Positions 14,956 through 53,428 of a DNA stretch of 64,000 nucleotides are shown here, one piece after another. Position 1 is the stretch's first letter, and each line of letters opens with the position of its first letter. Under the pieces are notes generated by a model. That model saw only the letters and a program-made list of their open reading frames with translations, did not search any database and had not been told where the DNA came from. This DNA is from Limnephilus marmoratus (lineage: Eukaryota > Arthropoda > Insecta > Trichoptera > Limnephilidae). The stretch is from assembly GCA_917880885.1 (NCBI GenBank), contig OU862922.1, forward strand, positions 992,001 through 1,056,000. Direction: 5' to 3'. A program made the position numbers and the translations under genes.

Positions 14956-15005
14956 TTTTATTGAGTCCGGATGGTCATCTTTGAAGATACAAAAGGGAGT
15001 CCAGG

Positions 15006-15821: not shown

Positions 15822-16360
15822 TGTGGATTGGTTAATAGTACTGGAAAGTATTGATAGATGGCGCTAATTGATATTATTAATGTTAGCTTGGTGTTTATGC
15901 TAAGAGATGGCACTGCAGTGTTTTTATAAATCGTTTTTGGTTTTCAATAATAATTTAGAACTTAATTAATGGATTAAATAATTATTAATTTTGAGGGAGC
16001 TCACTTTATTAATGGATTAAATAATAATTAATTTTGAGGGAGTTCACTTTTGTTTCCTTTGGCTTTTTTGTTAGTAATGATTTGACAACTTAACCTCGCA
16101 AAATATCACAGAACCACGGCGATTAACACAAAATTGTGTTTATTTTATTTTTAATCACTTTTTGGGCACTGTATTTAGTCAAAGGATATTGTTAAATTAG
16201 ATATTTTAATTAGAATTTCCCAAATATGACACGTGATGCTTAGTTTTCTATATTTTTATGGGAGCGTAATTTGGACTTCTTCACTGTTTGACGTTTAGGT
16301 ATTTTTTTGATATATTATCAGATTTGACAAATCCTATCAGTTAAAATGGAGCGTGTAGGC

Positions 16361-16973
16361 CAAAGACGTTATATACTGTGGAAGCGGGGTAGAAATCTCA
16401 AAGTGGGAAGCCAAAAGCAAGGCAATTGCACTAGTCTCGATTTCTAGTACTTTAGTACTAAACTGTCACTCGTCGAGTAAGGTCGTGTCTTACCAGTAGG
16501 AAAATTGCATTTAAAAAGCGCCAAAATGCCCTCCCGTGTGATGAGAAAATGTTTCCATTACACGGCAAACAGTAGTAAAAGTGAAGAAATATCATTTATA
16601 TGGACACTCAAATTACTTATTATTATCGATTATTATAAACAATACAATTAATTTTCATGTTTCCCGTCCGACAATTTTGTGTGTCATTAGAGAAAAAACA
16701 CACATTCTTTGATTGTCTTAGGGTACGGCCACACTGAGGCCAACTTCCAACTTAAAACTTTTGGACGATTGTGTAGAAGGGTAGTTTGTGCGTTGGAAGT
16801 TCGAGTTGGAAGTTTGGCTTCGGTGTGGAAGTAGCATTTCTTTTTAATACATGAATAAATTTTGAATTAAAGAAATTACTGAAAACCGCTAAAATCAAAA
16901 GAGTGTTGCTTACTTGCTACATTATTTTGTGAGTATGTGAGACTATGGCAAGTCTATTTATATAACGTCATTG
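16361..16973. mobile_element. 613-bp hAT MITE, uninterrupted reference copy
   Basis: The ends are inverted (CAAAGACGTTATATA / CAATGACGTTATATA) and the flanking octamers GTGTAGGC (16353-16360) and GTGTAGAC (16974-16981) match at 7 of 8. Internal inverted sequence around ACTTCCAACTT and AAGTTCGAGTTGGAAG occurs at about 16740-16820. It encodes nothing. The same family occurs inverted at 30599-52741, where it has been split by several insertions, and this copy supplies the empty sites for them. Confidence 0.85.
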
Positions 16974-22202: not shown

Positions 22203-22203
22203 C
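22197..22203 (-). promoter_or_regulatory. Splice donor of the EHD exon
   Basis: The minus strand reads CAAAG|GTAAGT, a strong consensus 5' splice site, at the point where EHD similarity stops. The reading frame continues a few codons into the intron before a stop, which explains the longer open frame seen there. Confidence 0.9.
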
Positions 22204-23427: not shown

Positions 23428-24024
23428 ATTGAAGGAACTTTCGAACAGTGCTCCAGATCTGACAAATGTTTGACGTGACTCAACCGAGCTCTCTGCTGCC
23501 AACTTCAGACTAATCGAGAACTAACTTCATGTTCGTGTGGATATTGCATAGATAAACGAATGGGCGTGATCAGCTTATCTTCTGTCACCTGTCAATGGAA
23601 ATGCAGCGTTTCTCAATCGTCTCCCTGCGAAAAGTATGGCGTATGATTAATTAATTTATTTTCCTCCCTTTTTGGCTTATAATGGTCAACTTACGTACAA
23701 CCAGTTCACCAGTATTTCAAGCTTCAGCGGTGACTTTGTGGTTCATAAAATACCTATTCATTGGTGGATTAGAAATCCGACGGAAATATTTCGATAGGTA
23801 GGTAAGTATTATGATGGCCAGATGCTTGGTCGTGGTCGTAATATGGGAATTCACCATTTGAGTTTTCGGAATAAATTTACTCATAAAAGACACTTCCTCA
23901 AATCGTAATTCATCAGTATCGTAACTTCATAACTCATCGTTGTAACGATTCAGAACAACAGAATATCGGAATCTCATCATTTGGCTTGATACGGCTAATC
24001 CATAAATAAACCAATCCCTAGATC
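23428..24024 (-). other. 5' UTR and upstream region of the EHD gene
   Basis: Upstream of the ATG the frame is open for a further 25 codons without another ATG, so a longer N-terminus would need a non-ATG start. No clear TATA box or initiator could be assigned. The transcription start is probably within a few hundred bases; the I-group LINE begins at 24038. Confidence 0.4.
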
Positions 24025-32520: not shown

Positions 32521-33515
32521 AAAAAGAGTCATTAATGGCTACATACAGAATACATCGCATCGCGCTGTACAAGTATATTGCAGCGGCCCCGCTAACGTCA
32601 ATCCTCATCTAGCGACCAACGCAGAATGAAACACGCCAACGTGTGAACGGTTTCACAAAAATCTGGCCAACGCGTTGGCCCAACACGTTGGCCCAACGTT
32701 AAGACACGACCTTACTCGACGAGTGACAGTTTAGTACTAAACAATACTAAACTAAACATAAATAAACCAATCATACTAAAGTACTAGAAATGAGACTAGT
32801 TCAATTTTCTTGCTTTTGACTTCCCACTTTGAGATTTCTACCCCGCGTCTACAGTTAGTCCAGTAAACGAATGGTCCAAAAGGAGGTGTAGAGTGCGTGA
32901 GCAGGAACCTAAGCGATTCTTTCAGGACTTGTTTAGGATGCTTAGGGTGTGAACATACTAAAAGTCCTGACGTCTAGGTGGTGAGCTAGGGGGGGGGGGG
33001 GGAAGGTCCCGATTTTTGAGTTTCCGTTTATATCTCAAAAACGGTGCGTCGCAGAGAATAAGTAAAAGCTCATAAGATTATCTACAACTTTTATTTTATA
33101 TGTAATTTTGGAAATCCCAGCCGTTTTTGAGTTATACGCTCCACAAATGCCAAAATTTTCGAAAAAAATCATTTTACCTCACATTTTTCATCAAACATTT
33201 CTTCATATCGTCTAAAATATTCATCCAAGAAAGAAATTTATTTGAAAGAAGTTGTAACTAATTTAATTACCTTTTAGAATATATGTACATATGTAAATAA
33301 ATCTCCAACCAGTAAATATTTACAGCAATTTTAAGTTTTTTCGTAAAATGGTAAAATGTCGTCATTTTCAGAAAAGGCTGTTTTTTCTTACCAAATTATT
33401 AAGACGGGTTTTTTCTTCATGGGAAATTCCTTATTAATTTTTGCACGCAAGAAAGCAGGTAAGTTGTTCTCGAACAGATGATTAGTGGAATTCATTTTAT
33501 AATCATTATTATTGT

Positions 33516-34075
33516 TGGATACGCGCCATAAATATATTTGGATCCATTTTCTTAATCAATTAATAATTTATGCTATGAGACCATGAGGGCGCCATCTATG
33601 GTTTTTGTATTGTATTGAGTACCTATGTGACTTGAAATTCAGTGTATTCATGCATTTCCTTACCTCTGTGAGGCAGGCAATTGCTTCCGACGGGAGTGTC
33701 AGTGAAAGGCCAAGAGATGTCGCTCCTAGTCACGCATAATCGAATAATTCATCCAATACTTGAATTATTGTTGTACAAGATTGTGGCACGCATTATTAAT
33801 ATGCAAATTTTTTCATTGTTGAAACTTCCTTGCTGTGCAAAACATCTGTTGAGATTATTCAATACCGCTTTGATATTTTTAATCAAAAGAAGTGTCTTTT
33901 GTGTTGGACATCGCCAATGAGCTGCATTCTCTGAGTGAGTATTGTTTGTTTTCACTTTGGAATTTGGAATTGCTGGGTCAACTGTTTTTGTGTCACATAG
34001 GGAAGAATTCAATTTTCGTTAATTTACATAGGGTAGTCATTCCCTCGTGTCAGGGGCTATTTACACGCCCCTACA
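33516..34075 (+). repeat. BEL/Pao 5' LTR
   Basis: 560 bp, beginning TGGATACGCGCC and ending GCCCCTACA. It drives transcription of the element. A primer-binding candidate TGGTCCTTTCGTAG follows a few bases downstream (about 34083-34096); the matching tRNA was not identified. Small open frames inside the LTR are repeated in the 3' LTR and are not genes. Confidence 0.92.
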
Positions 34076-34359
34076 TATTTAATGGTCCTTTCGTAGCCTG
34101 GATTATTCATTCATTTATACATTCAATTCGAGATTATAGCTGATATTACATGGAAGTTTGAATTTACGTATTTTTTTTGGTAAATTTGAAGTACCTCTTA
34201 TTTTTTGAGCTGGTCTTGTTTTTTGCTTTTGGATGACATATTTGGATGTTCGCAGAATTATCGTAATTTTGGATAATTATTCGCAACATTATTATTAATT
34301 AATTATTAACATTGTAACATTATTGTAAAATTTTGTGGTAATCTTTTCGCATATAAAAA

Positions 34360-35102
34360 ATGCCAAGAATTACGGAGGAAGGTGAGGGTGAGGCTCAAGA
34401 CAGATCGCTTATTCTTTTAACTGCAAAAAAGGAAAATCTTTTTTTTCGTATGAACGATCTGTATAATGCAACAAAGAATATATCTAATTTTGAGTAAAAA
34501 AATAATGAAGTGTTTATGGCTCAGTCAGAGATGATTGATCAAATGCGAAGTCAATTTGAAAATATTATAGATAGCATCAATGATCGTCAGTTAACTTTAA
34601 ATCCAGAATTTAAACCAGATTTTCAAGCTTTAAATGCATTTGATGATCTTTTTTTGAAGGTCAAACGAACTAGATCGAATATGAAAACTTCTGTAAGAGA
34701 ATCACTGACGTCACAAAATAATTCGCGGGAGCCGTGTATGATTAATCTTCCTGCAATAGATCTTCCAACCTTCAATGGTAAGAATGAAAGCTGGTCGAAA
34801 TTTTTTGAGTCATTTAAAGCCAATATCCATAATAATAGATAGCTAACTGACTCGCAGCGTGTGCAGTACTTAGTCGGAAAACTCACACACGGGGCGTTGA
34901 ACGTAACCGCAGGCATTGTGCCTTCGGGTGATACATATCAGATCATTTGGGAGAGTTTAGTTAAAAAATATCAAGATAAACGTACACTAGGAACACATTA
35001 TTTAAATAATATTCTCGATGCGAAAAACTGCACGAATACATCTGCCAGTCTCAATTCTTTCATTGAAAGATATTCTTCATCAGTGTCGGCATTAAAGCAT
35101 TG
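34360..35102 (+). pseudogene. BEL/Pao Gag, first part, with two in-frame stops
   Basis: The frame opens at ATG 34360 (MPRITEEGEGEAQDRS), has an in-frame TAA at 34495 and a TAG at 34840, but otherwise keeps one frame. It contains LPAIDLPTFNGKNESWSKFF, the hallmark of the BEL/Pao Gag (DUF1759-type) domain. The ORF stops at 35102 only because the R1-clade LINE begins at 35100; coding resumes at 43514. Product: structural Gag polyprotein, not made intact here. Confidence 0.85.
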
Positions 35103-36293
35103 AAGTACCCACCACTGTCCCGCCCCGGTATAGGCGACTTATGGTCGCCCCTTCGGAGCTCTCGCAAGAATCTAATTTTTTTTTTGAACGACTCTACATT
35201 TATTAAAACGAATCTAGACCTTCAATGTCCCTACATGCTTTGTTAGGTGGCGGAAATGTAGGATCGCCTACAGTCTAAGCTGTAATAGTCAAAAAGAAAA
35301 ACTAATACTACTGGTGTTAGTAAACATGAAAATATAATATAGAGAAAAAAAAAACAGAATATATATGAAAAATAAACAGAGGGAGACCACACACTCTGAG
35401 ACTGCAGGCATCTGCGTGTGAAGAGAAAAAAAAGTGTAGTAAATAAAAATATAACATTTGAAAAAGGTAAAAAAAATAGAGGATAACCGTCATGAGCGTC
35501 GTTTGCCCGGCAGTCCCCCAGATAATGTATAAGGTTATTAGTCCAACGTCACGGACCTAGTGGAGTCGTCCTTTAGCCAGCTAGCCGGTTGTGCTTAGAA
35601 GAAGTAATTGGACTACAATTGAAAGACCCTAGAGAGAAAAGCGTCGGGAAGTTGGAGGAGGGACGGACAAACCTCTAGATGCCATTCAATCTTTCCGCCA
35701 ACCTTATCATGTCAGGGGGGGTGGCGCAGGCAGAAGAAGGAGATAACAATAGTACATCACAAAAAGGTAGACCTAAATGTAAGTTAATAGGGACAAGGCC
35801 CAAAGTCCAACCCCTTTGATGGGGAAAAGGACATTACAAAATAAACAAAGGAGTTTCTATCCAACATCCAAATAAAATAAAAAAAAGTAACAATATAATA
35901 AATGAAACAAAATAACAATATTACAGTATAACAATATAGTACAATAACAATATAAAATAACAAATAACATAATTAACACAAATAAAGTTAGAATAAATAA
36001 GTATATCCAAGCAATAGTGTAAGAGAAAGATTAGAAAGTTAGTCCGTGAAATTACAGGAACAAGTATACCTGGTGATCTAAATTCAGCAAAAAACATTCA
36101 AAAAAACAAAAGAAACAAAATAACAATATCACAGTATAACAATATAGTACAATAACGAAATAATATAACAAATAACATAATTAACACAAAAAAGGTAGAA
36201 AAAATATGTACATCCAAGCAATAGTGTAGAGAAAGATCAGATCGTAGTCCGTGGAAATTACAGGAACAAGTACACCTGGTGACCTAAATTCAG

Positions 36294-38020
36294 CTAGTCA
36301 GCAACTCTAAGAGCAGGCCATCTTTCAACCCAAATTTTTGCAAATTTACGCAAGCACTCGAAATTCACCTTATTCGATACTAGATCAGTATTCCATACTG
36401 GTCTAATAGGAACGTCCAAACCATCAAGCATTTCCTCTCTAGCATCCATCATAATCTCACAATGCCACAGAATGTGCTCGGCCGACTGGTTGGTGCAACC
36501 GCACGCACAGTTGGGATGAGGGGATAGGGAGAGAGAATGAAGTCTCCCCCTGAATTCCCCATGACCAGACAAAAGTTGGGTCACATAATGGTCCAGTAAT
36601 AAAAAGGCCCCTTCCATTCTGAATTTAACTGATGGGAAGAAGGAGAAAGTCCATCTCCCCAAATTCGACCTATCCCAACGCAGCTGCCACTCTTGAAGTG
36701 ACAGTTCCCTCATTTCACGAAGCAGACCAGGGAGAGTCCCCGAACCACCAGGAGTTAGGATAACACCAAGATGAGTTGCCGGGATTCCTCTAGTGAGCTT
36801 TTGCTTAGTAATCACTTCCCTAATTTCAAGATCGATTGGTAATATACCAGCCAAAACAGGCAAAGCGTCCGAAGCAACGGTTCTATACGCACCAGATAGT
36901 GCCAGGAGAGGGGTACGTTGGCCTCTTTTCAAAGCCAAGAGTATAAGCGAATTATCCAGGCGGTGTTCCCAAACAGATGCAGCATATGAAACTTGCGCCA
37001 CATAAACGCACCTATAAAGCATACGCAATGCCGGATTACGCAATCCCCACTCAGCTGTGGAGAGTCTCCTTAACTTCAAAAAGAGAGCCTGAGCCCTGCT
37101 GGATACATCCTTGACGTGAGCCAAAAAAGAGGACGATCGATCAAGTGTGACACCTAAATATTTAACATTATCAAAGAAACGGATATTGGACTCTCCCATT
37201 TTGATGGTTGGATTTCTGTCTCTGCTGAGATAACCCTTCATCAGGAGGCCCTTGGTCTTATGGGGAGCAAAGGTCATCTTGTTTCTTGTTCCCCAATCCA
37301 GGAACATCTGCAAACCATCACTGCCTTTCTTTTCAACTTCCTTTCTACTGTCCCCAGAGACCAGATACATTTTGTCATCAGCGTAGTCGACAGCGATACA
37401 TCCTTCAGGCAAGGGTAACCTGGAGGAGTCGTCAAAGGCAATATTCCACAGGTCAGGTCCAAGAATGGAGCCTTGTGGACATCCCATATCAGTTTCCCGT
37501 TCGATGCAATAGTCACCAAATGAGATAGTTATAGTTCTATCAGCCAGATAGTCATCAATGATCTTAAATAAAAGTTTGGAGCACTGCCTGTTTTTCACCT
37601 TCATACGTATCATTGCCCACCACGCGTGATCGAAGGCACCAGTTATATCAAGGAAAATTGCCACAACATACTTCTTTGGACAAACCTTCACCCAGTTAAG
37701 CACATACGACAGGGCGTGCACCGTGGATTTCCCAGGGACGAAACCAAATTGCAATTCGCTGGCCGGTGAGAGCTTTCTCCGTAGACGTTCCTTGATGATA
37801 TTCTCCAGAATTTTACCTAGAACTGGGAGTAAGGTGATAGGTCTATATGCTTTGATATCTGATAGTGGTTTATCATTACCCTTGGGTATAATCCGGAGCA
37901 CGCCACGCTTCCATTCTGAGGGAAAAACTCCTCTTCTCATGCATGTGTCCATCACCTGGAGGAGTTCCTCTTTGGCGTGGACCCAGACTTGCTTTGCAAT
38001 AGAGAACTCCAGTCCAATTT
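36294..38020 (-). pseudogene. R1-clade LINE ORF2, reverse transcriptase half
   Basis: The frame enters from the insertion side (about 38020) and runs to the stop at 36294. RT motifs: AYRPITLLPVLGKILE, IFLDITGAFDHAWW, GCPQGSILGPDLWN and YADD. The C-terminus has CACGCTNQSAEHILWHC, the CCHC zinc motif of R1-type ORF2. It has no start of its own, since the endonuclease half lies beyond the insert. The enzyme would prime reverse transcription at a nicked target. Confidence 0.88.
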
Positions 38021-39670
38021 TTTTATTTTTTTTTATGAATAAAGACCTTCAAACTTAAATAACTGCATTTTTATTTTTATTTTTATAGTTAGTTTTAATA
38101 GTTAAAATAATTGTCAAAGTTTTAATTTTTAAAAACTCCTAGAAACGCACCGTATCTATGGTGGCCTTCACCCACCTGTAGTTTATTATTTTCAAGTTGT
38201 CTTTTTGAATCAGTGATATTATGTCGAGGGAAATTTCCCTAGATCTAGGGGAGAAAAATATTTTTTAGGGATAAGGGAAATCAGGACAAAATCTAGGGAA
38301 ATTTCGATCTCTGGCAAATTTTTTATTACATATTACAATATTACTGGTATTATTTATACATATATATATAAATATATATATATATAAATATATATTTTTT
38401 GGAATTCCCATGAATCTTAATTATTGTTGTACTTACCATGCAATGTTATTTTTAACACTGACAACTCAAAATGATATTATATGTATCTAAAAAGATAAAT
38501 GGGAGCTCTGAAAAAGAAATTAATTTATGTTTTAAGTTCCATTTTTTCGGTGATTGCGGTTGATTTTTATTTTGCAAAGTGTTTTTTTTTTATTTGGAAT
38601 TCAGTTTCTAATTCAGTGGTGAGTGTATTCGTACTTTTAAATTATTACTTCACGTAGCAAAAAGTGTTTTATTTGGAAAAGCACAGTATTTATTATAAGT
38701 ATATTTACCAAGTTCCGATATCTTTCCAATTAATAAATCATATAACAGGATTAGTGTTACACAATCAGGTGGCTACGTAGGTAATTGCGTTAATGTGAAA
38801 TTCTACGGAAATTTCACTTCGAAATCTAGGGAAATAATTTTTTTGGGCAGAGCATCCCTGATTTTGTATTTTAGAAAATGGCGGAATAAAGTGAAGATAG
38901 GATGACTCAATGACTTTTGTGTAAGAAATTGAGGCGTTTTTTATTTAAGATTAACTGCTTTTAATATAGAAAAACATTGGTAAAATGTCCACATTTCACC
39001 GCTACTGTTATTGTATTTTAACAAAGTGCAATATAAAAATAATGAATCATCTTTGCAAATACAAGTGATATCGTTCTTCAATTTTGTTGGTCCAGGCGTG
39101 ATTTTGTACATTGTTTTATGTATAACACACACATAAACTGGCATAATACACTGCATGACGATTGCGTAATAGCTTGTATCCCTTTACTAAAAACAATTTG
39201 AAAATACAATGTCAAAATATGACACGAATAGTTAACCTCAAATAGGCAAAATTTATTCCCGATTGTCCGCAAATATAGCCCCTTTCGTAAATTGTTGAGG
39301 GCCTAAATTATGTTTCAATAAACACAATAACTATTATTTATCTAAATCTCTATAAACAGTATGAAAATAAACCAAAAACACGAAATGTTGAATTGCTTAA
39401 GTGTCATTTCAAATGTCAATACTGGTCAATACAATACAATACACGCGATCACCAGGTGACAGCGTGACGCGTGACGTCACGTTTCACCATTTCAGTAATG
39501 CCAACTTAACGCTGTGTTTTCAGGAGAGGTTTAAAAATGCACTTTTTAATATTTTTTTAAAAACTCTGCGTTTAATATTATGGAATAAAAGTTATATATT
39601 CAGAATCAGCGTTTATTGGTCTATATGAACATATTTTTTTAAAGCCATAATATTTTTCACTGGAGTTCCT
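38019..39670. other. ~1.65-kb AT-rich insert inside the LINE ORF2
   Basis: It interrupts ORF2 between the APGHD motif of the RT N-terminus and the segment before GVFPSEWKRG. It is AT-rich with no credible ORF, a TA-rich run (38358-38395), and GAGGGAAATTTCCCTAG-like words. The sequences at the two borders are inverted copies of GAACTCCAGT, so exact borders and class are unclear (possible terminal repeat or a rearrangement). Confidence 0.55.
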
Positions 39671-41098
39671 TATTACGCCGTTGAGCCTATCATGCCCTGG
39701 TGCCTTCTTAGGACCCAAACCCTTAATTATAACTTCAATTTCTGCCTTAGTGACTCTATACATATTATCCTCTTGGGCGAGGTTACTAGGAGGCAGCCGT
39801 GCCAGATTTCTAATCTGGGTATGGTGGTCACTTTCCCCAATTACTGAATCTACAGGAACTAACTCGCCCAGAAGTGTCTCGAGGGTAGAGGCCACGTCTA
39901 CCGTCTCAGCGTTCCTACCATCAATATTCCCAATTACAGTTGACAAAAACCGATCAGATCCTTTACCGGATTTCTTAATTGCGCTGTGGATATTCCACGG
40001 GTTGGCGTTACCCACTTCTTGGACCCAATTATGCCAGGCAGCTCGTTTCGCTTGAAGAACGGCCCGCTTAAAAGCCGACCTGGCAGATCTTAGGTCACCC
40101 AGGAGAGCGGCTGTTTCCTCCTCCGTACGACCGCCACTCCTAGCCGATCCCATCGCCCTGTAGGCTCTCTTGTAAGCCCCCTTTAGCGAAGTCAGCTCAG
40201 GTGACCACCACGGCGTCCGAATACTCATATTTGGGTTTGTTCTGCCCAAGGACGAGTTGGCAGCAGATACAACCGCCTTATTAAAAAAGTTTCCCAAATT
40301 ATCCGGATCAGTAGCGGCTACATGGTAAAAATCCCTTAAAGAATCTCGTAGCGCTATCCCAAAGTTATCCCAATTCGCCCTAGTGGTGTTGAAATACCAG
40401 GAGGATCTTGGAATCTCAGTTTTATTAACACCAACCGTAAATGTAATTAGTCTATGATCCGAAATAATTTCGCACTCATGGACTGTCCACCTTGAAATCC
40501 TGGTTGCAACTGACCCAGAGCAAAGAGTTAAGTCAATGTTACTCTCACCATGTATGTTTGAAAAAGTAAAAAGAGAACTCTGTTCATTAATTATGCTAAG
40601 ACCTTGCGCAGCAATCAGGTCTTCCACGGCGTCTGAACGTTCCGTCCTACAGTCGTTAGTGTCAAACCATAGTGGTGAGCGAGCATTAAAGTCACCTCCG
40701 ATAACAATGTTACGACCTTTCAGCGCATTGAGTGCGCGCGTCAAACTCAGGATGTGGGGTCCAACCGGGTTCCCAAACTTAAAATAGACTGAGATCAAAA
40801 AGATTTCAGTATCACCAAATCTTATACATACACAGGTTTGGTACTCGTCGGAATAACCGTCCAAAAGGAGGGGACTGATCAATGAGGTGTTGACCAGGAC
40901 ACCCGCCCCCGGAGATCGGCCAACTTCGAGAACTGTCCCCGGAAAATTAATTGGAGTTTTACCTTGCCAAGTGTACTGTTCCTGTATGAGCATGATGTCA
41001 ATATTGCGGTCAGACATGACTCGCAGCACCTCCAAAGTGGCCATCCGGGAACGCTGCAAGTTGATCTGGCCAATAGAAATTGGATTAACTAGAGCCAT
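39578..41098 (-). pseudogene. R1-clade LINE ORF2, endonuclease half
   Basis: Starts MALVNPISIGQINLQRSR at 41098. AP-like endonuclease features in order: QINLQRSR, LIQEQYTW, a GGDFNARSPLW motif, and SDHRLITF. A linker follows, then the start of the RT (GLGPKKAPGHDRLNGV). About 25 bases after that the sequence leaves the family because of the insert, so the last ~35 codons to 39578 are spurious. The start overlaps the ORF1 end by 14 bp, suggesting coupled translation. Confidence 0.85.
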
Positions 41099-42572
41099 AA
41101 TCAGTCATATTAATTTGTGCCTCTATAGCGGCTTTGTGAGCGGGGCACATCCTGTCACCAGTCGGGTGGTCAGCCGGTTTCTTGAATCTCGTACAGGTGG
41201 CACAGACAGCAGGTTGTGCTTTCATGGGGCATTCCTCGTAGTCGTGTCCTTCTGCGGCGCAGTGACGACAGGTGATTTTTACTTGATTACATGTTTTGGT
41301 TATATGCCCAAATTGATGGCATTTGAAACATCTGGTAGCCCCAGTGAAATCACGCGTTCGACAGGCAGACCAGCCAAGAAAGCACAATCCGCTATCTATT
41401 AGTACACGCCTGGCGTTGGGGTGACATGTCACCACCATGTTCATGGTAGGCAAGTCACGCTTTCCAAAGAGCGATACTCGGCGCATGGTCCTTAGATGGT
41501 CTTCCAGTGAAAGAGAGGTTTTACCCTCCAGATTGGTCGAATAGATCTCCTTAAAGAGCTCCGAGTCTGCAGACGGTTCACCACGAGGTACGTTATAAAT
41601 AACTATTTTTGGTAGTCTACCCAGAGGGCTCACGATTTTCAGGCCGCTAGCTGCTAGTTTAGCCTCGGTTTTTTTAATATTATCAAGATCCCTTTTATCT
41701 TTTGCTTGAATGGCCATGCCGGCACCCTTTATTTTGCGTAATCTAACTACTTGAAAACCATCCGTGCGAGGGTTGATAGTCTTCTCCAGGTTCTTTTTCG
41801 TTTCCTCGGAGGTAGTACCCTCCGGCTTATCTGGGTAGACTAGCACTGTAAGTGGTTTAGGCGGAATTGGGCGCTCAAAGCCGTTTACAACAAGTGTTTT
41901 GGAGTTAGGTGCAGAACCAGTTATCATCGCATATGAAGGAGCAGCTATGGTGACAGGTTGAGGTATACTTGTATTCGGACGTGCTTGGATCAAGTTATTA
42001 ATATTCTTAGACATAAGATTTTGAGAAATAAGTATGTCCTCAATAGTTGAACTCCTGGTAGTGACTGTGTTTAAGTCTAACATGAGATTAGTTATGTCAG
42101 ACATCAAGTCATCTAAAAGTTCATTGATTGAACTCTTGTCTCCTTTATTGAGCTTATTTGATCCATCAGTAATAATAGATCTTATTTTGTGGCATTTTGA
42201 CATTGCTGGGACTAGCTTCCATTGGTTCACGTTAGAAGAATCGCTATGCCTGACCTTTTTACGTAAACTGGCATTAGGAGAAGGTATAGAAATCGCGGTA
42301 AAAGAGTGTCCACTTGTGCCAGCCGCGGGGGGGGGGACCGTATCTATATCCGAACATTCATCGGTGTCACTTTCCACTGCTTGGGACACAAATTCGCCCC
42401 CAAACAGTTTCTTATTGGATTTGGGTCGTTTCTTTTTTGAGCTTAAGGACTCCATTTCACTCCTAAGTTCTTCTATTCTGGCTTTAATGGCAAATTGACG
42501 ATCAATTTTTCGTTTCTCTTGATCGGGACCAGCACCAGTCGAATCCTGAGTCGATTCCACGTCGGATGGCAT
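41085..42572 (-). CDS. R1-clade LINE ORF1: Gag-like zinc-knuckle protein
   Basis: 495 residues from ATG, intact. A charged, coiled-coil-prone N-terminus (KARIEELRSEMESLSSKKK) with a basic KKRPKSNKK patch precedes a central Gag-like region, then three cysteine motifs: CFKCHQFGHITKTC, CRHCAAEGHDYEEC and a CATCTRF...C motif. The role is RNA binding and particle formation. It is followed by ORF2 with a 14-bp overlap. The 5' UTR (42573-43508) shows no other ORF of note. Confidence 0.88.
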   Translation of the reverse strand: MPSDVESTQDSTGAGPDQEKRKIDRQFAIKARIEELRSEMESLSSKKKRPKSNKKLFGGEFVSQAVESDTDECSDIDTVPPPAAGTSGHSFTAISIPSPNASLRKKVRHSDSSNVNQWKLVPAMSKCHKIRSIITDGSNKLNKGDKSSINELLDDLMSDITNLMLDLNTVTTRSSTIEDILISQNLMSKNINNLIQARPNTSIPQPVTIAAPSYAMITGSAPNSKTLVVNGFERPIPPKPLTVLVYPDKPEGTTSEETKKNLEKTINPRTDGFQVVRLRKIKGAGMAIQAKDKRDLDNIKKTEAKLAASGLKIVSPLGRLPKIVIYNVPRGEPSADSELFKEIYSTNLEGKTSLSLEDHLRTMRRVSLFGKRDLPTMNMVVTCHPNARRVLIDSGLCFLGWSACRTRDFTGATRCFKCHQFGHITKTCNQVKITCRHCAAEGHDYEECPMKAQPAVCATCTRFKKPADHPTGDRMCPAHKAAIEAQINMTDYGSS

Positions 42573-43513
42573 ATCACACTAAAAATGGGGTAAATTGAGG
42601 GAATTTCCCTAGAAATTTGAAATTTTCCCCAAAAATGGGGAAAAAAAGGGGAAAATGATTGACTAAAACTTTGATTAAAACTTCAAAATGTCGCCCCGTA
42701 AAAAAAGTTACATACAAAAAGGGGTCCAAACGTGGTCCCTGAGGAACACCTAAGTATAATTTAACACACAAAGGTCAGATTTTGACATTCCATCAAAGAT
42801 GGAACATAAAGAATATTATACAGTCACTGAAGTGGATATGGTCCGATAATAATTCAAATTTAATTTGGTTATCCATACAAAATATCCAAAATTGAAAAAT
42901 ATTTTTAAGTTAAACACAAGTTCTTCGTACAAAAATTAAATAGTTCTTTAATCACGTCTAGAAAAATCTATGGAAGGTTCTAGAAGGAATTCCACGTGGA
43001 GAAACTAAATTGATAAAAATTGACATTAAACCTGCACTGATTTTAGGTCCAAAGGTATCAGCGTACGCGGAAAATTTTTCTGCATCCGGTGATGCTAAAA
43101 ACGACACAAAAAACAACACATGCGACACTATTAATATGAAAAAACACACTTTTTGTTGTTATAATATAAAATTGTTAATAAAATAGGGAAAAATGAGTCA
43201 AATTTAACACAGTTTTTTGTGGCACGAATGTCTCACAGATACGTACACATGTGTGATAATGAATATCGGGAGACCTGGCGTGGTCGCCCGATAAAAAATA
43301 AAATTAGATTTTAACACTTTTTTACACAAAGTTAGGTTAAAAAATGGAATTTTCAGAAAAAAAAAACAATAGGGCCATATAGCCCTTCACAAGCTGTATA
43401 AGACAGCAAAAAAAATTTTTTGAAAACTTCAACTTTACTATTTTTTAGAATTAAAAAAACGCGGAGCGATTTTTATACGTGTTATCAGCTTGAAGGCTGG
43501 GTAGAAACTCGGC

Positions 43514-46352
43514 ATTAAAGCAGTTAGGTATTGAAGATTTAACTGATCTTATTTTGTTTCACTGCGCGGTAAGAAAAATTGATTCACAGACGGCTCAGAA
43601 CTTTGAGCTGACAGTTCGTAATAAAGAAATTCCTTCTTATAAGGAGTTAGTTTCGTTTGTACAAGATCAAGTAAAGATTTTAGAACGAACGAGTAACTCG
43701 CATGGTGTCGTAAATAAAACGCATCCCATTTCGTCCTCCCGATCAAATAATACTAAATCGTTCGTCGCGAGTAATGCGAATATTCCGCGCTTCCCAGCTC
43801 CGCCGAAAGGATGTATTCTGTGTAACAAAACTGATCATTTAGTCAACGTTTGCTCAAAGTTTAAATGTATGAGTTCCCCACAGGCTCGATTTGAATTTAT
43901 AAAATCGAAAAATGCCTGTGTAAATTGCCTTAGTGGTTCACATACAATCAAGTCATGCAAATCGGGGTTAGTTTGTGATTTGTGCAATAAACGTCATCAT
44001 ACATTCTTACATTTCGGCAGTGTGAATAATATGAAAACCAATACTCATGTACATACGTCGCAAGTACCTACCAGTGAAGAACCGTCAGTCCCCCCTCCAG
44101 TGTTATCCAGCATCAATGGAACTGGCATTGGTGATAAGCAAGTGGAGGGGACCGCGAATGTCAATCCTTCGTGTTCGCTTTGTGCCAAAGTAATACCGAA
44201 CTCTTCTATTTTACTTTCGACCGCACAAGTATACGCGAAGCTTAAAAACGGAAATAAAGTTATTGTTCGGTGCCTAATTGATAATGGCTCTCAAAATAAT
44301 TTGATTACGGTCGATTGTTGTAAGACGCTGAATTTACCAATAATTCCTTTGAGTAATTCGTTTGTCAAAGGAATTGGATCAACGTCTCGACCAATTTTCG
44401 GTTACGTGTATTTGGATATTGAGTCTCGCGTATATCCAGAGAATAAATATAATATACATGCGCTTGTCGTTGACAGTATCACCGACCAATTACCTAATCA
44501 CTATATAGCCAAGGGTGACATGAGGTACTTAGAGGGCATACCTCTCGCAGACTTAACGTGGAATATTCCTGGATGCGTGGATGTCGTCATCGGTGCGCAA
44601 ATGTTCCCATATATTTATTTAGGGAACAGGGTTGAATCGGGTACTAGTGCACCCCCCGCGTTATCGACCGCTTTCGGTTTCGTGTTGATGGGTGATTTCC
44701 CCAATAATGTGCTCAACACAAACACATCATTTTCGGCACTCGCACTGAATGATTTAGTGCAAAAATTTTGGCTGTTAGAAGAGATACCTAATATAAAATT
44801 TCTAAGTCCGGAGGAGACAGAATGTGAGAATCTCTTTACTTCATCAATTTCTCGCACTGATGATGGTAGATATTCTGTTGCTTTACCTTTCTGTAAAGAT
44901 CCAAGACAATTGGGTAATTCTCGTACTGCTGCCCAACGCCGATTTTTGGCATTGGAGCGAAAATTTAAACATTCCCCTGCTTTGCAGGAGAATTATAACA
45001 AGATTATCAGTGAATATATTGAAAATAATTACCTATCAGAAGTCTCAGAGTCTGATATCACAGAAGATGGATATTACATCCCACATCATGCTGTCACTCG
45101 TCCAGACAAACCAATGCCTCGTATTGTGCTCGATGCTAGTGCTAAAACACACACAGGGCTGTCACTGAATGATATTATTCATACTGGTCCCAATTTGCAA
45201 GCCGATTTGTTTCTGCTTTTGCTTGACTTTCGTCTTTTTCCCATCGCTATGACTGCGGATATAAAGCAAATGTATTTACAGATTGAAGTTCCTAGCAAGC
45301 ATCGCAGATACCTGAGGATCTTATTTCGATTCTCAAATAATGGTCTCATACGAACTTTTCAGTTCAATCGAGTTCCTTTCGGCTTGACGGCAAGTCCATA
45401 CTTAGCAATGCGGACGGTTCGCCAGTTGGCCCAGGATATGAGACCACATTACCCGGACGCTGCCAAAGTGGCAGAGTCCAAGCTGTACATGGACGACCTG
45501 GTCTATTCTATTGCAGATGAGCCCAGCGCCATACGTCTTTCTCGAGAATTAATCTCATTGTTTAAGTCCGGTGCCTTTGATTTAGTAAAATGGACTAGTA
45601 ATTCTCAAGTTGTACTTGAGAACCTCCCGTATTCTCACCGCAGCTCAGTGGACTTCACTGTTGGTTCTAACAATACCTCTAAGGTGTTGGGCCTGTCGTG
45701 GGAACCAGCTGATGACAGCTTCTTCTTTACGGCATCTTATGTTCAGGAGAAGTGCACAAAGCGGAGCATACTCTCCATAGTCGCCCGCTTATTTGATGTC
45801 CTCGGCTTGGTCGCCCCTGTCATTCTGTACGCTAAATTACTTATCAAAGAGCTATGGCTGTGCAACATTGGTTGGGATGATACACCCCCTGATAGCGTTA
45901 TTCGTCGGTTTTCGGCGCTTACACAGGAATTTCCTCTAATTTCAATGATGAAAATCCCTCGCCATGTTGGTGTCCTGAAAGACAGTACGGTGCTCGTTGT
46001 TGCTTTCTGCGAAGCAAGCATGAATGGTTACGGCTGTGTGATTTATTTGCACACCACTGATCTGTTTGGGAAAATTACAGTGAGATTGTTGTGCGCAAAA
46101 TCAAAGGTTTCTCCCACCAAAGTGACGACCCTCGCTCGTTTGGAGCTCTGTGCCGCAGTATTGATGTCCAAATTAATACGGACGGTTCAAGATAATTATT
46201 CTGAGCGTCTTCCTATTGCAGGAACATATGCGTTTTCCGATTCTACCGTTGCGCTCTCTTGGATACATTCTTCACCGCATCGCTGGTCGGTGTTTGTTAG
46301 TAATCGCGTAGCTCAGTGCCAAGAAAATTTGTCTCCAAAGAACTTTTACCAT
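43514..46352 (+). pseudogene. BEL/Pao Gag-Pol: zinc fingers, protease, RT, RNase H
   Basis: The frame resumes after the LINE and stays open to the solo LTR. Contents: Gag zinc motifs (CILCNKTDHLVNVC, CVNCLSGSHTIKSC, CDLCNKRHH); aspartic protease with CLIDNGSQNNLI (DNG rather than the commoner DSG); RT with MPRIVLDASAKTH, FNRVPFGLTASPYLA and the YMDD active site; RNase H region with TTLARLELCAA and FSDSTVALSWI. It ends at NFYH, where the solo LTR enters. This is the largest intact piece (over 940 residues) but is not a full polyprotein. Confidence 0.9.
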
Positions 46353-46683
46353 TGTAGAGAATGACAGCGATTTCATTTTACAGCCATAAAGTAATTTTGT
46401 ATAAGGGTATCCCTGAGATCTGAGCGCTTGCGGGCCAGACGCCAGAATAAACTGGTAGGCAATTTCATTCCCTTACTTGCGCCCTTTTGGGTCGTTCGTC
46501 GCTTTTCGCTGTCATACTCGCCATTTTCCTTCAAATCCTTCTGAATCGAACTTTTGTCGTGTCATGCTTTGTATCCAACATTCAATAAACGTGGAGTCCG
46601 GAACCTCAACCTGTGTATTAATTTATCTTCATACCTTGGCTACATTAGTAAGTACGATCCTACCAAATAAAGTCATTTGCCAA
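46353..46683. repeat. Solo LTR inserted in BEL pol
   Basis: 331 bp between two copies of ACCAT (46348-46352, 46684-46688). It begins TGTAGAGAATGACAGC and contains AATAAA-type signals (CAATAAACG, near 46583). Pol similarity stops at its left edge and continues right after its right copy of ACCAT. No internal region remains, as expected after LTR-LTR recombination. The parental family is unknown; it differs from the BEL LTRs here. Confidence 0.8.
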
Positions 46684-46688
46684 ACCAT

Positions 46689-47552
46689 GTTGCTGGTAGT
46701 GAAAACCCGAGCGACTGCCTTTCTCGTGGCATGCTTCCTTCCCAACTCATTTCACATGATTTATGGTGGAACGGCCCATCATGGATTCGCAGCCCACCTT
46801 TGGAATGGCCATTAAAACCGTTTCACACTACCAATACTGGTGAAATACCTGAACACAAAGCTAATGTGCTCATTGCAACATTTCAGGGTGAAAAATCGGT
46901 CCTGAGTGAACTGGCTCAGCGTATATCCACTTGGGATAAACTACTAAGGATTGTTGTTTACGTCCTCCGATTCATAAAAAAGATATCACTTTCCTCTGGA
47001 ACGGTCAATAATCTTATGACTGCTGAAAAGGCTGTGATTCGTGCTGTGCAGAGTATTCATTTTGCAGGAGATATTGCTGCACTCCAGAAAGGCAAATTTC
47101 ATTCCAAAAGACTTCAGAGTTTATCTCTATTTCTTGATGGAGATAATCTGTTACGTATTGGGGGGCGGATTTCTAAATCTGATTTACCTTTTGAGGTTAA
47201 ACATCCGGTTTTACTTCCCAAACATGACTGTGTTGTCGATCTGATCATCGCTCACTTTCATGTCGTGAACTGTCATACAGGCCCAGGTCTTCTTATGTCT
47301 ATCTTACGTCAACGCTATTGGATATTAGATGCTAGGACTGTTATTAGGGCGATGGTGCGGAAATGCAATTGTTGCTTCCGCTTAAATCCATCGCATCCTA
47401 CACCAAAGATGGCAGATTTACCGTCATATCGTGTTGCAGAAGCAAAGGCCTTCGTACATACCGGTGTAGATTACGCAGGTCCCCTCCGTATTACGCTGAC
47501 TCGTCGGAGAGGACAACATTCTCAATCATTTGTCTATTCGTATGCCTTGTGA
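46689..47552 (+). pseudogene. BEL/Pao Pol: RNase H end and integrase N-half
   Basis: It starts with VAGSENPSDCLSRGM, the segment expected straight after the RNase H part. It contains the zinc-binding H..H..C..C module (AHFHVVNCHTGPG, CNCC) and the first catalytic aspartate of integrase in TGVDYAGP. The frame shifts near 47520, after which the expected YICLFVCLVTKAIH segment lies in another frame. Confidence 0.85.
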
Positions 47553-47570
47553 CCAAGGCTATTCATAATA

Positions 47571-47655
47571 TATTATAATAAAACAAATATGAAACTTTAT
47601 TCCACTATCCACTAAGGCTATTCATATTCCACTATCCACTAAGGCTATTCATATT
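47571..47655. repeat. ~85-bp insertion between AAGGCTATTCAT repeats
   Basis: Integrase coding should run directly from AAGGCTATTCAT into ATTGAGTTGGTCTC. Instead ~85 bp intervene, made of AT-rich sequence plus two units of CCACTAAGGCTATTCATATT. It may be a small retroposed or slippage-generated insertion. Confidence 0.6.
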
Positions 47656-48040
47656 GAGTTGGTCTCTGACTTAACTTCAAATGCTTTCCTGCCTGCTTTC
47701 AGCCGTTTTATTTCTTGGCGTGGCCCGGTAACATGCTTGTATTCAGATAATGGTACTAATTTTGTGGGTGCGAAGGCACAATTAGATGACCTCTACAAGT
47801 TTTTGGTTGAATCTGAATATGAGCCCTCATTAAAGCGCGAACTCGCTAAGCGTCGTATAGAGTGGAAAATGATTCCACCACGCGCGCCTCATTTTGGGGG
47901 TATGTGGGAGTCGAACATAAAGAGCATGAAGACACACTTGTACCGTGTGATTGGAACTCAGCTTCTCACCTATGAGGAGTTACATACTGTGCTAGTTCAA
48001 ATTGAGTGCATAATGAATTCGCGTCCACTTACAGTTATGT
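47653..48040 (+). pseudogene. BEL/Pao integrase catalytic core, C-half
   Basis: It carries the second catalytic aspartate (YSDNGTNFVGA) and the third acidic residue in PRAPHFGGMWES. It is cut at NSRPLTVM by the LINE fragment at 48040; the last part continues at 48788. Confidence 0.85.
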
Positions 48041-48787
48041 ATACAGAATAAATTTTCGAAATATTTACTCAAGAAATACAACAAAACTTCAAATAATATG
48101 TTATCTTTACAAAAAAGACGCACACTGTCAGATCTGATATTTCTACATAACCTGCTTAATAATAAAATAGATAGTCCCGAATTGCTATCTGTCATTGGTT
48201 TAAATGTTCCAATGAGGCGTACCAGGCACACTTCACTTTTTCACATAGGATCCAATAATACTAATGCAGCACAAAACTCACCAATCTCTCGCGCAATCAC
48301 ATCTTATACACACTATGAAAAATTATTACACTTAGACATTTTCCACAACTCCCTGCAAACATACAAAACTAATTTACTAAATTTGTTGGCGTGATATAAT
48401 TAATTTTAAAACTTCTTATTTACACTTATATTTTCATTAAACTTTAATTACTACTCATGAGCATGTATTTATTGCTATAAAAATACTCATCTTTTCACTA
48501 AACTAATTACAATTTGTTAGCATGTAATTCTTGTTCTAAAAAAAAAAAATCTCTTTTATCTTTGTATACAATTTTCCTTAATATTATTCTTCTCTTTCAT
48601 TCATTAGTTAAGTTTTAAGAACTGTTCAAATCCCAGGCGTATTATCCCAGATATTATACGGACTTACGTAATAGGTACTAAAGCATGTAATTACTTTATT
48701 TAACATTCCTTATAACTTGTAAACTTATGTACTGTGTATGTTCCTAATAAACAAATAAACAAATAAACAAAATAAACAAATAAACAA
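48040..48787 (+). mobile_element. 5'-truncated LINE fragment in BEL integrase
   Basis: The frame 48055-48394 encodes the C-terminal end of a Jockey-group ORF2 (RRTLSDLIFLHNLLNNKID), similar in pattern to the fragment at 62860-63192. The 3' end is a tail of AAATAAAC-type units (about 48745-48787). The integrase frame stops at ATG before it and resumes at ATGTCTTCTG after it, so any target duplication is only a few bases. Confidence 0.75.
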
Positions 48788-49192
48788 ATGTCTTCTGACC
48801 CTTATCCAGAAGTCCTTACGCCTGCGCATTTTTTAATGTCGACACCATTGCAGTACTTGCCTGCTTTTGTCCTGGCAGACGGTAAAATCAATTTGACTCA
48901 GCGTAAGCAATTATTAGACAGCATGGTTCAGTCCTTCTGGAAGAAGTGGCGTTCAGAGTATCTGCACACCTTGCAAGTCAGGCAGAAGTGGACTACTTCT
49001 GATCATCCGATAGATATCGGAACTGTCGTACTAGTGGGACAGGAAGATTCCCCTCCGTTAAATTGGCCTTTAGGCGTGATAACTGAAATCCATCCCGGAA
49101 TGGATAAAATTGTTCGCGTTGCGACGGTAAAGACACGATTTGGTTCTTTTAAACGTCCGGTTGTCAAATTATATCCCATTCCAAGGCAATAA
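48788..49192 (+). pseudogene. BEL/Pao integrase C-terminal part
   Basis: It begins SSDPYPEVLTPAHFLM, the motif following the integrase core in BEL/Pao elements. It continues through FWKKWRSEYLHTLQVRQKW and the beta-rich C-terminal domain (PPLNWPLGVITEIHPG), and ends with a stop at 49190-49192. The 49193-49499 stretch is the 3' untranslated region, with a purine run (AAGGCGGGGAA) before the 3' LTR that could be the polypurine tract. Confidence 0.85.
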
Positions 49193-49499
49193 TTTTATAT
49201 TCTATCTATTTTTGTTTATTTTTATTTATTTATTTTTTGTTTTTTAGTCATTGTTTCAATGATCTCTGACCCAGACATGGCATTACTTAATATCCGTTAT
49301 CTTGGTCAATTGAACTTTATTACATTGTATTTTTTAGTTATTTTTCTTTATTTTGTGAGATTCTGCGAATTTCCAATGCGTGTCATTCCTGAATATTATC
49401 GGTGAATACAGTCACTTTATTTCTATTTCATTTCTTGTTTCATTTGTATTTTTATACTCTTTCTTTTGTAAGCTCTACGAACTTCCAAGGCGGGGAATA

Positions 49500-50059
49500 T
49501 GGATACGCGCCATAAATATATTTGGATCCATTTTCTTAATCAATTAATAATTTATGCTATGAGACCATGAGGGCGCCATCTATGGTTTTTGTATTGTATT
49601 GAGTACCTATGTGACTTGAAATTCAGTGTATTCATGCATTTCCTTACCTCTGTGAGGCAGGCAATTGCTTCCGACGGGAGTGTCAGTGAAAGGCCAAGAG
49701 ATGTCGCTCCTAGTCACGCATAATCGAATAATTCATCCAATACTTGAATTATTGTTGTACAAGATTGTGGCACGCATTATTAATATGCAAATTTTTTCAT
49801 TGTTGAAACTTCCTTGCTGTGCAAAACATCTGTTGAGATTATTCAATACCGCTTTGATATTTTTAATCAAAAGAAGTGTCTTTTGTGTTGGACATCGCCA
49901 ATGAGCTGCATTCTCTGAGTGAGTATTGTTTGTTTTCACTTTGGAATTTGGAATTGCTGGGTCAACTGTTTTTGTGTCACATAGGGAAGAATTCAATTTT
50001 TGTTAATTTACATAGGGTAGTCATTCCCTCGTGTCAGGGGCTATTTATAAGCCCCTATA
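49500..50059 (+). repeat. BEL/Pao 3' LTR
   Basis: 560 bp, nearly identical to the 5' LTR; visible differences are near the end (TTTTTGTT for TTTTCGTT, TATAAG for TACACG, CTATA for CTACA). It is followed by the ATTGT duplication. Confidence 0.92.
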
Positions 50060-50072
50060 ATTGTGATCATGG

Positions 50073-51636
50073 GTGATTAGGTTAGTCGTCGGAGATGCTA
50101 CAATAACGTGCTACGATGCTGTTCGAGTTGGTGAAAAGGCAATGAATGCGATAGTCGGCTTGACATTCTCAGACATCAAGTTGTCCCGCAAAGATCGGGC
50201 ATTTCCAATGTCTTCTGTCAGCTCGTCGATAAAAATTCACGATGAAAAGGTTGCAGTTGACCCAACATTGCTGTTTCAGCGGATGTGTATAAGCAAACGA
50301 TCAGATGAGGATTTGATGAAATTCTTTGAGTATGAGTTGGCCCCATTTCCCTTGGCACTGTTCAATGAAAGTGGGATGCGAAAGACAAATAAATCTGTTC
50401 TGTATAGCTTATTCGAGCCTACCAAAAAATTGTTCTACTGTCTCAGATGAACATAGTTGTGGACGGAGGATTTCTATCATATTATACATATTATCTATAT
50501 TATACAGAGTAATTTGACAAAAAGATGTCTCCGTTGCCGCAATTTGTGATCGTTATATCACCTATGTCAACCACCACTATCCTGGAATGATTCGCACTGT
50601 GATATTTGATGGGTACGCAAATCCAGTCAATAGTACAAAATCACAAGAACAGATGCGATGATACAGACTGAGAAGGTCAGCCGACATCAATTTGACATGG
50701 AACAAATCAATACCCGTTAAACAGGAAGATTTTTTATCCAATCCTACCAACAAAAGTAACTTCATCTCCTTACTACAGACTAAGTTTCGGGAGAATGGGA
50801 TACAGACTCATCAGGCCACCGATGATGCTGACGTCCTTATCGTGAAGACTGCTGTGGAACTATCCTTTCACAACTCTGTGGCTGTCTTTGGTGAGGATGT
50901 GGACCTCACTGTCCTTTTGATTGCTTCCACTCCTCCCACCTAAGATATTTTGTTGCTGAAACCCGGACGAGGGAAAACCAAAACATTGGCACTGTCCACC
51001 CAAGAGATGCAGCATCGTGGATTTGAATACATCATATTTTTACATTCATTTACCGGATGCGATACAACGTCTGCAAATTTCAGGAGAAGCAAGGTGGGCT
51101 TTTCAAAATTGTACTTGGAGTCAGAAATGATCAAGCAAGCGGCAATGATCTTTAACAACCCCTCCTCTACTCACGACGAGGTTGAAGAGGCTGGAAGTAA
51201 ATGCTTCCTGAAATGGTATGCAGCGCCAAAAAGACAGACCTCCCTTAACCAGTACCGCTTCCAGTCGTTCACAAGGTCCGTGACAAATATGAAGCCTGAC
51301 ATCAGCTCCCTCCCTCCAACAGAGAGTGCAGCTAAACAGCATTCCCGGCGGACATACCACCAAGTTCAGCAGTGGCTCGGGATTGAGCTGTCCCCTGAAG
51401 AATGGGGGTGGAAACACGAAGGAGACACCCTGGCGTCAATTACAACAGAAGATCCTCCAGCACCGGAGGTCCTTCTGAAAATGATATTTTGCCACTGCGC
51501 CAAGGATTGTGCAATTGGCAAATGCGGATGCCGAAAAGCAATGCTGACCTGTTCTGCAGCGTGCCTTCACTGCCAAGGGAGATGTCTCAATAGCGTGCCT
51601 GTTGCCGAGGACGACGATGAAGATGACGTAGAATGA
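50073..51636 (+). pseudogene. Element X protein: PIN/FEN-like nuclease with cysteine-rich tail (broken)
   Basis: Three open pieces: 50073-50450 (FFEYELAPFPLALFNESGMR), 50692-50943 (DDADVLIV, VAVFGEDVDLTVLL) and 50944-51636 (LKPGRGK, FLHSFTGCDTTSA, RTYHQVQQWLG, then FCHCAKDC, KCGCRK, CSAAC, CQGRC). Between 50451 and 50691 the expected VVDGG and VIFDGYANPV segments are present but frameshifted. Conserved acidic residues (FDG, DAD, GEDVD, GCD) fit a PIN/FEN-type metal-dependent nuclease; the C-terminal cysteines resemble a CXC (tesmin-like) motif. Similar proteins of unknown function are multicopy in invertebrate genomes. Catalysis of transposition is a hypothesis. Confidence 0.6.
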
Positions 51637-51752
51637 CGTAGACTGAGAATGACGATGCCATGGATGAACAACGCTTGCCAGGACCCTCACGTCCAAAGAG
51701 GATATGAAAACGTGAATCCATATAAAGTTGAGAGTGTAACATGATGTTATTG

Positions 51753-52724
51753 AGAACAGTGCCAAGGGAAATGGGGCCAACTCATACTCAAAGAATTTCA
51801 TCAAATCCTCATCTGATCGTTTGCTTATACACATCCGCTGAAACAGCAATGTTGGGTCAACTGCAACCTTTTCATTGTGAATTTTTATCGACGAGCTGAC
51901 AGAATACATTGGGAATGCCCGATCTTTGCGGGACAACTTGATGTCTGAGAATGTCAAGCACACTATCGCATTCATTGCCTTTCCACCAACTCGAAATGCA
52001 TCGTAGCACGTTATTTTGTAGCATCTCCGACGACTAACCTAATCACCCATGATCACAATAATAATGATTATAAAATGAATTCCACTAATCATCTGTTCGA
52101 GGACAACTTACCTGCTTTCTTGCGTGCAAAAATTAATAAGGAATTTCCCATGAAGAAAAAACCCGTCTTAATAATTTGGTAAGAAAAAACAGCTTTTTCT
52201 GAAAATGATGACATTTTACCATTTTACGAAAAAACTTAAAATTGCTGTAAATATTTACTGGTTGGAGATTTATTTACATATATACATATATTCTAAAAGG
52301 TAATTAAATTAGTTACAACTTCTTTCAAATAAATTTCTTTCTTGGATGAATATTTTAGACGATATGAAGGAATGTTTGATGAAAAATGTGAGGTAAAATG
52401 ATTTTTTTCGAAAATATTGACATTTGTGGAGCGTATAACTCAAAAACGGCTGGGATTTCCAAAATTACGTATAGAATAAAAGTTGTAGATAATCTTATGA
52501 GCTTTTACTTATTTTAAAAAAGTTTTCCTCTGCGACGCACTGTTTTTGAGATATAAACGGAAACCCGAAAATCGGGACCATCCCCCCCCCCTCCCCCCCC
52601 CTAGCTCACCACCGAAACGTCAGGACTTTTAGTATGTTCACACCCTAAGCACCCTAAACAAGTCCTGAAAGAATCGCTTAGGTTCCTGCTCACGTACTCT
52701 ACAACTCCTTCCTTTACTGGACTA
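51753..52724 (-). repeat. Right inverted arm of element X
   Basis: A minus-strand copy of the left arm, including ~75 codons of the same protein (RMCISKRSDEDLMKFFEYEL; minus-strand frame within 51436-51975) and the long non-coding portion with the C/G run. It lacks the BEL insertion, so at about 52045-52065 it preserves the sequence into which BEL inserted. Confidence 0.85.
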
Positions 52725-53428
52725 AGTATATAAAGTCTTTGGTATAAAATGGACCTTTTATATCGTAAACACTTTTGAATCTTGAGTCGTTTTTATTTAA
52801 GTACAATAATTTTTTTTTATTTATTAATTTTCAACGCCCTGATGGGCGTTTACATGACAAGTTTATAATACAGAGACAGTTTTTTTTAATAAAAAAGATA
52901 AAGTATAAAAACATAACTAGTAAACATCATATGAAAGGTAGGTATACAGATAAATTTAAGGAAAGATAGTGTATTACAATAAAAGAGAAAGTTTCTAAGT
53001 TGTGAATGGCATAGAAAATAAACTAGTAGGCATGTTAGTAATTACAAAATTTACAGGTGACTGATTAAATGTCATAAATAATACATGACAAAATGCAAGA
53101 TACATAAAAACAAAACGTTAACAAGGTTTTTCATTGTAAATTTATATAGAAATACACAAATATATGCAATAGACCCTACGTGATGCTCCTTAGATATCAA
53201 AATATTCTACATAAAAATATTGTTCAGATATTTCTTGAATAACGGTAAACTTGTATTAAATACATCGATATTTGAGGTGTAGTTCCCTAGTACACTACAC
53301 ACGTAGTCGAGAAATTGATGCGTTTGTATGGTAGTTGGTTAGAGAATTATTGTTGCAGAGTAATATGTTTTGCCTTGTCGCTCAAGTTGGTACCTTAAAG
53401 TCAATGAGATGCAGGAGTTCGCAACAAT

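Follow-up and report, generated by a model that had tools for sequence, protein, structure and literature searches.

The nuclease of AcademX transposons is reportedly of the XPG type (Kojima 2020; Repbase). The available parts of published surveys count Academ among the DDE superfamilies (PMC9587614) and give target-site duplications (TSDs) of 3 or 4 bp for AcademX and of 9 or 10 bp for AcademH, a difference seemingly tied to the encoded helicase and nuclease (PMC10045372). A further excerpt mentions a RecQ helicase for Academ and, within that excerpt, no nuclease (PMC3627910). Here we describe Element X, a transposon copy of the trichopteran Limnephilus marmoratus. It lies in a window of 64,000 nucleotides, the whole stretch analysed (assembly GCA_917880885.1, contig OU862922.1, positions 992,001 to 1,056,000, forward strand). 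X is very probably a foldback copy, internally deleted and non-autonomous, of a cut-and-paste DNA transposon of Academ-like type, dead copies of which were amplified in trans. Since its nuclease and TSD length fit AcademX, we class X as a non-autonomous element of an established type; AcademX is the most likely one, a label that is not proven.

The autonomous relatives of X have a DDE transposase, the nuclease and a TSD within the 3-4 bp range, the features on which AcademX was tested. The likeness to Academ and AcademX consists of a DDE transposase with a FEN/XPG-type nuclease, terminal inverted repeats and a 3-bp TSD. X itself differs: it has lost the transposase, what is left of its nuclease is dead, and part of its 960-bp arms is coding sequence. 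The autonomous-type elements of this genome are 5.3-6.2 kb long, which is close to the mean of 5,565 bp given for curated bivalve Academ elements in the available part of PMC10294476. The Pfam family DUF6589, which is not labelled Academ, matches five of six long proteins at E <= 0.1, one of them above the curated cut-off, and 7 of the 46 members of A1. Literature searches on Academ with XPG and on DUF6589 produced nothing useful.

P elements and hAT transposons have 8-bp TSDs. The TSDs of X are 3 bp long and do not fit membership of either superfamily. A FEN nuclease and a CXC tail fused to the transposase further distinguish this system from the P element and hAT (Hermes), and the identity in structural alignments with them is 6-10%. 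Foldback elements and Mu-killer-like inverted derivatives are non-autonomous, have long inverted arms and carry gene sequence. All this holds for X; unlike them, it keeps its tips and TSDs and has multiplied to hundreds of copies.

Table 1. Element X and associated features of the window, and ends of autonomous-type copies from the same genome
Feature	Position	Strand	Details
Element X, both segments	32856-33515 + 50065-52724		~3.32 kb, split by nested LTR retrotransposon
Left TSD	32853..32855	.	AGT
Outer, non-coding segment of the left arm of X	32856..33515	+	tip TAGTCCAGTAAA at 32856-32867
LTR retrotransposon nested in X, not X sequence	33516..50059	+	BEL/Pao-like open reading frames (ORFs), by eye
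Left arm of X, inner coding part	50065..50363	+	start of nuclease remnant; inverted copy at 51754-52063
Broken C-terminal-half remnant of autonomous protein	50070..51636	+	FEN/XPG-like nuclease and CXC-type cysteine tail
Right inverted arm of X	51754..52724	-	tip TTTACTGGACTA at 52713-52724, inverted TAGTCCAGTAAA
Right TSD	52725..52727	.	AGT
Empty-site relative	16360..16457	-	second, unoccupied copy of the insertion target of X
Autonomous-type copies L059, L060			TSD TTA; tip TACTCCAGTCAAAATAG; protein 1,498 aa
Autonomous-type copies L061, L064			TSD TTA (L061), TTT (L064); tips TAGCCCAGTCAAG / TAGTCCAGTCAAG
Autonomous-type copy L062			TSD CTT; tips TAGGCCAGGCAACG / TAGCCCAAGCAACG

X is a foldback, or long terminal inverted repeat, non-autonomous derivative: it has long inverted arms within TSD-flanked tips (Table 1). 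In the window copy the arms are ~960-970 bp long, and their outer parts are 92.8% identical over 681 alignment columns. The joined flanks of X match the empty-site relative at 91.8% identity over 98 columns, continuously across the junction and with a single AGT. The inverted arms, identical tips, AGT duplication and empty site had all been claimed in an earlier note on this sequence and were recovered here. The 5' non-coding region of X directly abuts the nuclease part; ~2.8 kb of transposase coding sequence are gone. About 300 bp from the start of the nuclease part are repeated in inverted orientation in the right arm, which lengthens the terminal repeats to ~960 bp. Gap repair with template switching between the ends would leave such a structure, and the arms may have formed by template switching or gap repair of this kind. 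A splice-donor-like word, CAGGTAAGT, at 33456-33464 in the non-coding arm possibly belongs to a 5' intron of the parent.

Relatives of X number in the hundreds. In the host genome (1.63 Gb, 67 contigs), DNA matches to the right part of X were searched for; the best 40 of 2,484 first-look candidates were scored, and all of them are X copies with a main match 93-100% identical. Exact words from the X tip and from the nuclease core occur 759 and 517 times in the whole genome, and the reversed controls once each. From the 40 scored candidates 27 full copies other than the window copy were taken (L002-L028). They are 3,262-3,719 bp long and all have both tips. Exact 3-bp TSDs flank 25 of the 27, the exceptions being L026 and L028. 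AGT was rejected as a target motif, the TSDs of X being varied 3-bp words.

The mean pairwise distance is 2.8% (range 0.5-4.3%) among 23 copies, the set without L025-L028, whose arms are rearranged or diverged. Arms of ~940 bp, 90-99% identical, form one block in 24 of the 27 copies and two blocks in the other three. Left and right arms are 97.0% identical within a copy versus 96.1% between copies (23 of 27 compared). Only 2 of the 23 left arms have their own right arm as the closest match, and therefore the arms are not strongly homogenised. An insert that lies in the left tip of the remaining 20 of the 23 aligned copies sits in the right tip of L022, and L021 and L024 share the same tip letters. 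The interior is inverted relative to the tip-specific insert in L022 and, judging by the tip letters, in L021 and L024.

Pairing of tips with cores was analysed on contigs C1-C3, where 94 of the 759 tips and 78 of the 517 cores are listed (6 tips and 22 cores on C4 were set aside). Among the matches listed, 39 tips are paired with a core, in the same sense for 30 and in the inverted sense for 9; 55 tips have none, and 39 cores have no exact tip nearby; these are not family counts, because exact words miss mutated copies. The 9 inverted pairs out of 39 are consistent with inversion between the arms, as if the arms recombine. Four coreless tips were fetched. Three match X across 758-760 bases inward, and the fourth, L065, was considered as a parent and rejected, as it is an X copy running into unrelated sequence, LINE-like by eye.

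The gene remnant of X is a FEN/XPG/Exo1-type nuclease with a Cys-rich tail. By reading, it contains the motifs FDG, DAD, EDVD and GCDTTSA and the cysteine cluster, and it has 505 database relatives at E <= 0.001. A 46-sequence profile matches human Exonuclease 1 (Exo1) in PDB with E 4.7e-4. The AlphaFold2 model of one relative, P0002, has a mean pLDDT of 81, and in Foldseek it matches Exo1, FEN1, XPG/Rad2 and XRN nucleases (43 matches at E <= 0.001, with modest TM-scores). In a viral structure library most matches are nucleases of the FEN/XPG/XRN type, from phages and large DNA viruses, and reflect the general fold. Five catalytic-type aspartates are invariant in all 46 relatives and two more are present in 45. 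Nine cysteines of the tail were checked, and every one of them occurs in 45 of the 46. The agreement of profile and model bears out the earlier proposal of a PIN/FEN-like nuclease. Pfam gave one weak match, below the cut-off, for the three broken pieces of L002. The nuclease part shares its fold and acidic motifs with FEN1, Exo1, XPG and Rad2, but here it belongs to a transposase polyprotein, is followed by C-terminal CXC cysteines and is broken in X.

Gene fragments are known in foldback elements, and taken alone the nuclease part matches Exo1, as would be expected if X were an unrelated transposon that had captured a fragment of a host FEN-like gene. However, the sequences closest to the fragment belong to one polyprotein family, of which they are the nuclease part. 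The nearest named one, an Aphis craccivora protein with 79% identity across 51% of the X query, still has the transposase end fused. Moreover, the tips of X resemble those of autonomous elements, and we consider capture highly improbable. As a separate observation, the two nearest named relatives are both aphid proteins (P0006 and P0096, 79% and 67% identical over part of the query), and the long-frame copies resident in the genome share 37-42% identity with the remnant. The aphid sequences are thus closer to X than the long-frame elements of its own host, which may point to horizontal transfer.

The remnant is dead in every copy inspected. A single frame runs through it in none of the 27 copies; 11 share one pattern of three open pieces, from which the remaining 16 depart, mostly by extra breaks. 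A word spanning the frame break is present in 28 of 28 copies including that in the window, as is an in-frame stop (scored by regular expression in 27 copies and read in frame in L020). The transposase half has no match in any of the 28. In a genome-wide protein search with the nuclease, all of the best 84 of 10,097 candidates, which were scored, contain in-frame stops, the longest open frame being <=573 aa. Most of these 84 align end to end in one frame, and the frame break is apparently absent there; L070, of the kind without the break word, has in-frame stops and additional breaks of its own. Core words are more numerous than break-spanning words (517 versus 267), in agreement with at least two subfamilies of X. 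Most likely, we infer, copies that were already dead gave rise to two or more rounds of multiplication of X. X has no intact transposase gene and is not autonomous; its movement would require a transposase supplied in trans.

Full-length relatives encode one protein of ~1,450-1,500 residues that combines a P/hAT/RAG1-like DDE transposase with the same nuclease and Cys tail. Its order is a Cys/His-rich N-terminus, the RNase-H-like DDE transposase, the FEN/XPG-like nuclease and the CXC-type cysteine tail. The DDE transposase assignment draws on a model of the relative P0156 compared with the P element, Hermes and RAG1, and on residues D422, D589 and E834, invariant in 50 of 50 sequences. Foldseek gave no plain match for the transposase half at E <= 0.001.

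The earlier note suggested that a PIN-type nuclease defines a new class of transposons or was captured by one. The nuclease is the sole recognisable gene type in X, and its catalytic-type acids are invariant in relatives; on these grounds it might itself be taken for the transposase. This is barely credible, as complete relatives in this genome and elsewhere have a same-frame DDE transposase with the invariant D, D and E, and X multiplied with the nuclease broken in all 28 inspected copies and all 84 scored matches. The proposed class is thereby removed. Another suspicion in the same note, that X, a frameshifted copy, is a foldback derivative of an autonomous element type, is supported.

Such relatives are present in the same genome. 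The transposase part was searched for, and of the best 133 of 3,121 candidates, which were scored, eight have stop-free frames of 1,162-1,505 aa; the best matches to P0002 are 49-54% identical. Where the frame reaches 1,498-1,505 aa, the copies end in long inverted repeats with tips like those of X and are flanked by 3-bp duplications. Six autonomous-type stretches were fetched (L059-L064). In five of them long inverted repeats were detected, covering 318-547 alignment columns, and no such repeat was found in L063. All five copies with ends found have 3-bp TSDs. The frames of L062-L064 are interrupted. L059 and L060 are 99.95% identical over 5,737 columns (5.7 kb), and L061 and L064 are 99.2% identical over 6,165 columns; given these identities, both pairs moved recently. 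Another multicopy group (L051-L055, L057, L058 and others) has matches to the transposase query that begin only near residue 94, at ~50-54%. It is a further lineage of this superfamily, and most of its copies are broken.

The X tip TAGTCCAGTAAACG is of the same type as the autonomous tips, near-identical but not identical to them (TAGTCCAGTCAAG / TACTCCAGTCAAAA). The search for a parent covered the best 133 transposase and best 84 nuclease candidates and 100 of the 759 tip words; among the matches listed, none combines a transposase with the exact X tip (TAGTCCAGTAAACGAA), and the absence of such a copy is not proven. The earlier note had itself named, as grounds for refuting the nuclease-based class, a second transposase in complete copies that share the ends of X. 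In substance this is what is seen: relatives with long terminal inverted repeats, 3-bp TSDs and near-identical tips encode a DDE transposase upstream of the nuclease in one frame. The missing exact match could mean that X comes from the same superfamily and was moved by a different, convergent transposase recognising similar tips. This is very improbable, because a single superfamily accounts for the gene content, the 3-bp TSD and the type of tip.

If X is an Academ-like derivative mobilised in trans, an autonomous relative would supply the transposase that recognises its tips, excises it and inserts it with a 3-bp stagger. The fused nuclease may trim flaps or non-transferred strands. By analogy with Tn7, the DDE site might make and join the transferred 3' ends while the FEN site processes the non-transferred 5' strand and so sets the 3-bp duplication, a one-chain eukaryotic counterpart of TnsB/TnsA; we offer this tentatively and regard it as rather unlikely. 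If such a division holds, X, a dead remnant moved in trans, would be a natural test substrate. What the flap nuclease does in the fusion can be tested with intact fused copies such as the recently moved L059 and L060. The analysis also connects a widespread invertebrate family, annotated as uncharacterised or CXC domain-containing proteins, with the nuclease portion of a DDE transposon. Among the matches listed, its named members come from ants, wasps, aphids, butterflies, beetles, molluscs and corals.

The LTRs of the element nested in X are 99.5% identical over 558 aligned columns, and the 5-bp duplication ATTGT flanks it on each side (33511-50064; exact ends and duplication by eye). It contains LINE-like minus-strand ORFs at 36294-37955, 39578-41098 and 41085-42572, named by eye. 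Other LINE-like reverse-transcriptase ORFs of the window, also named by eye, lie at 8496-10458 (+), 11953-15821 (-) and 24185-29258 (+). An uninterrupted frame of 472 aa at 22084-23502 (-) encodes an EH-domain protein (EHD1/PAST1-like). Its best named matches are mainly from moths and butterflies, which suggests a host within or close to the Lepidoptera; many of its listed homologues are longer, ~532 aa.
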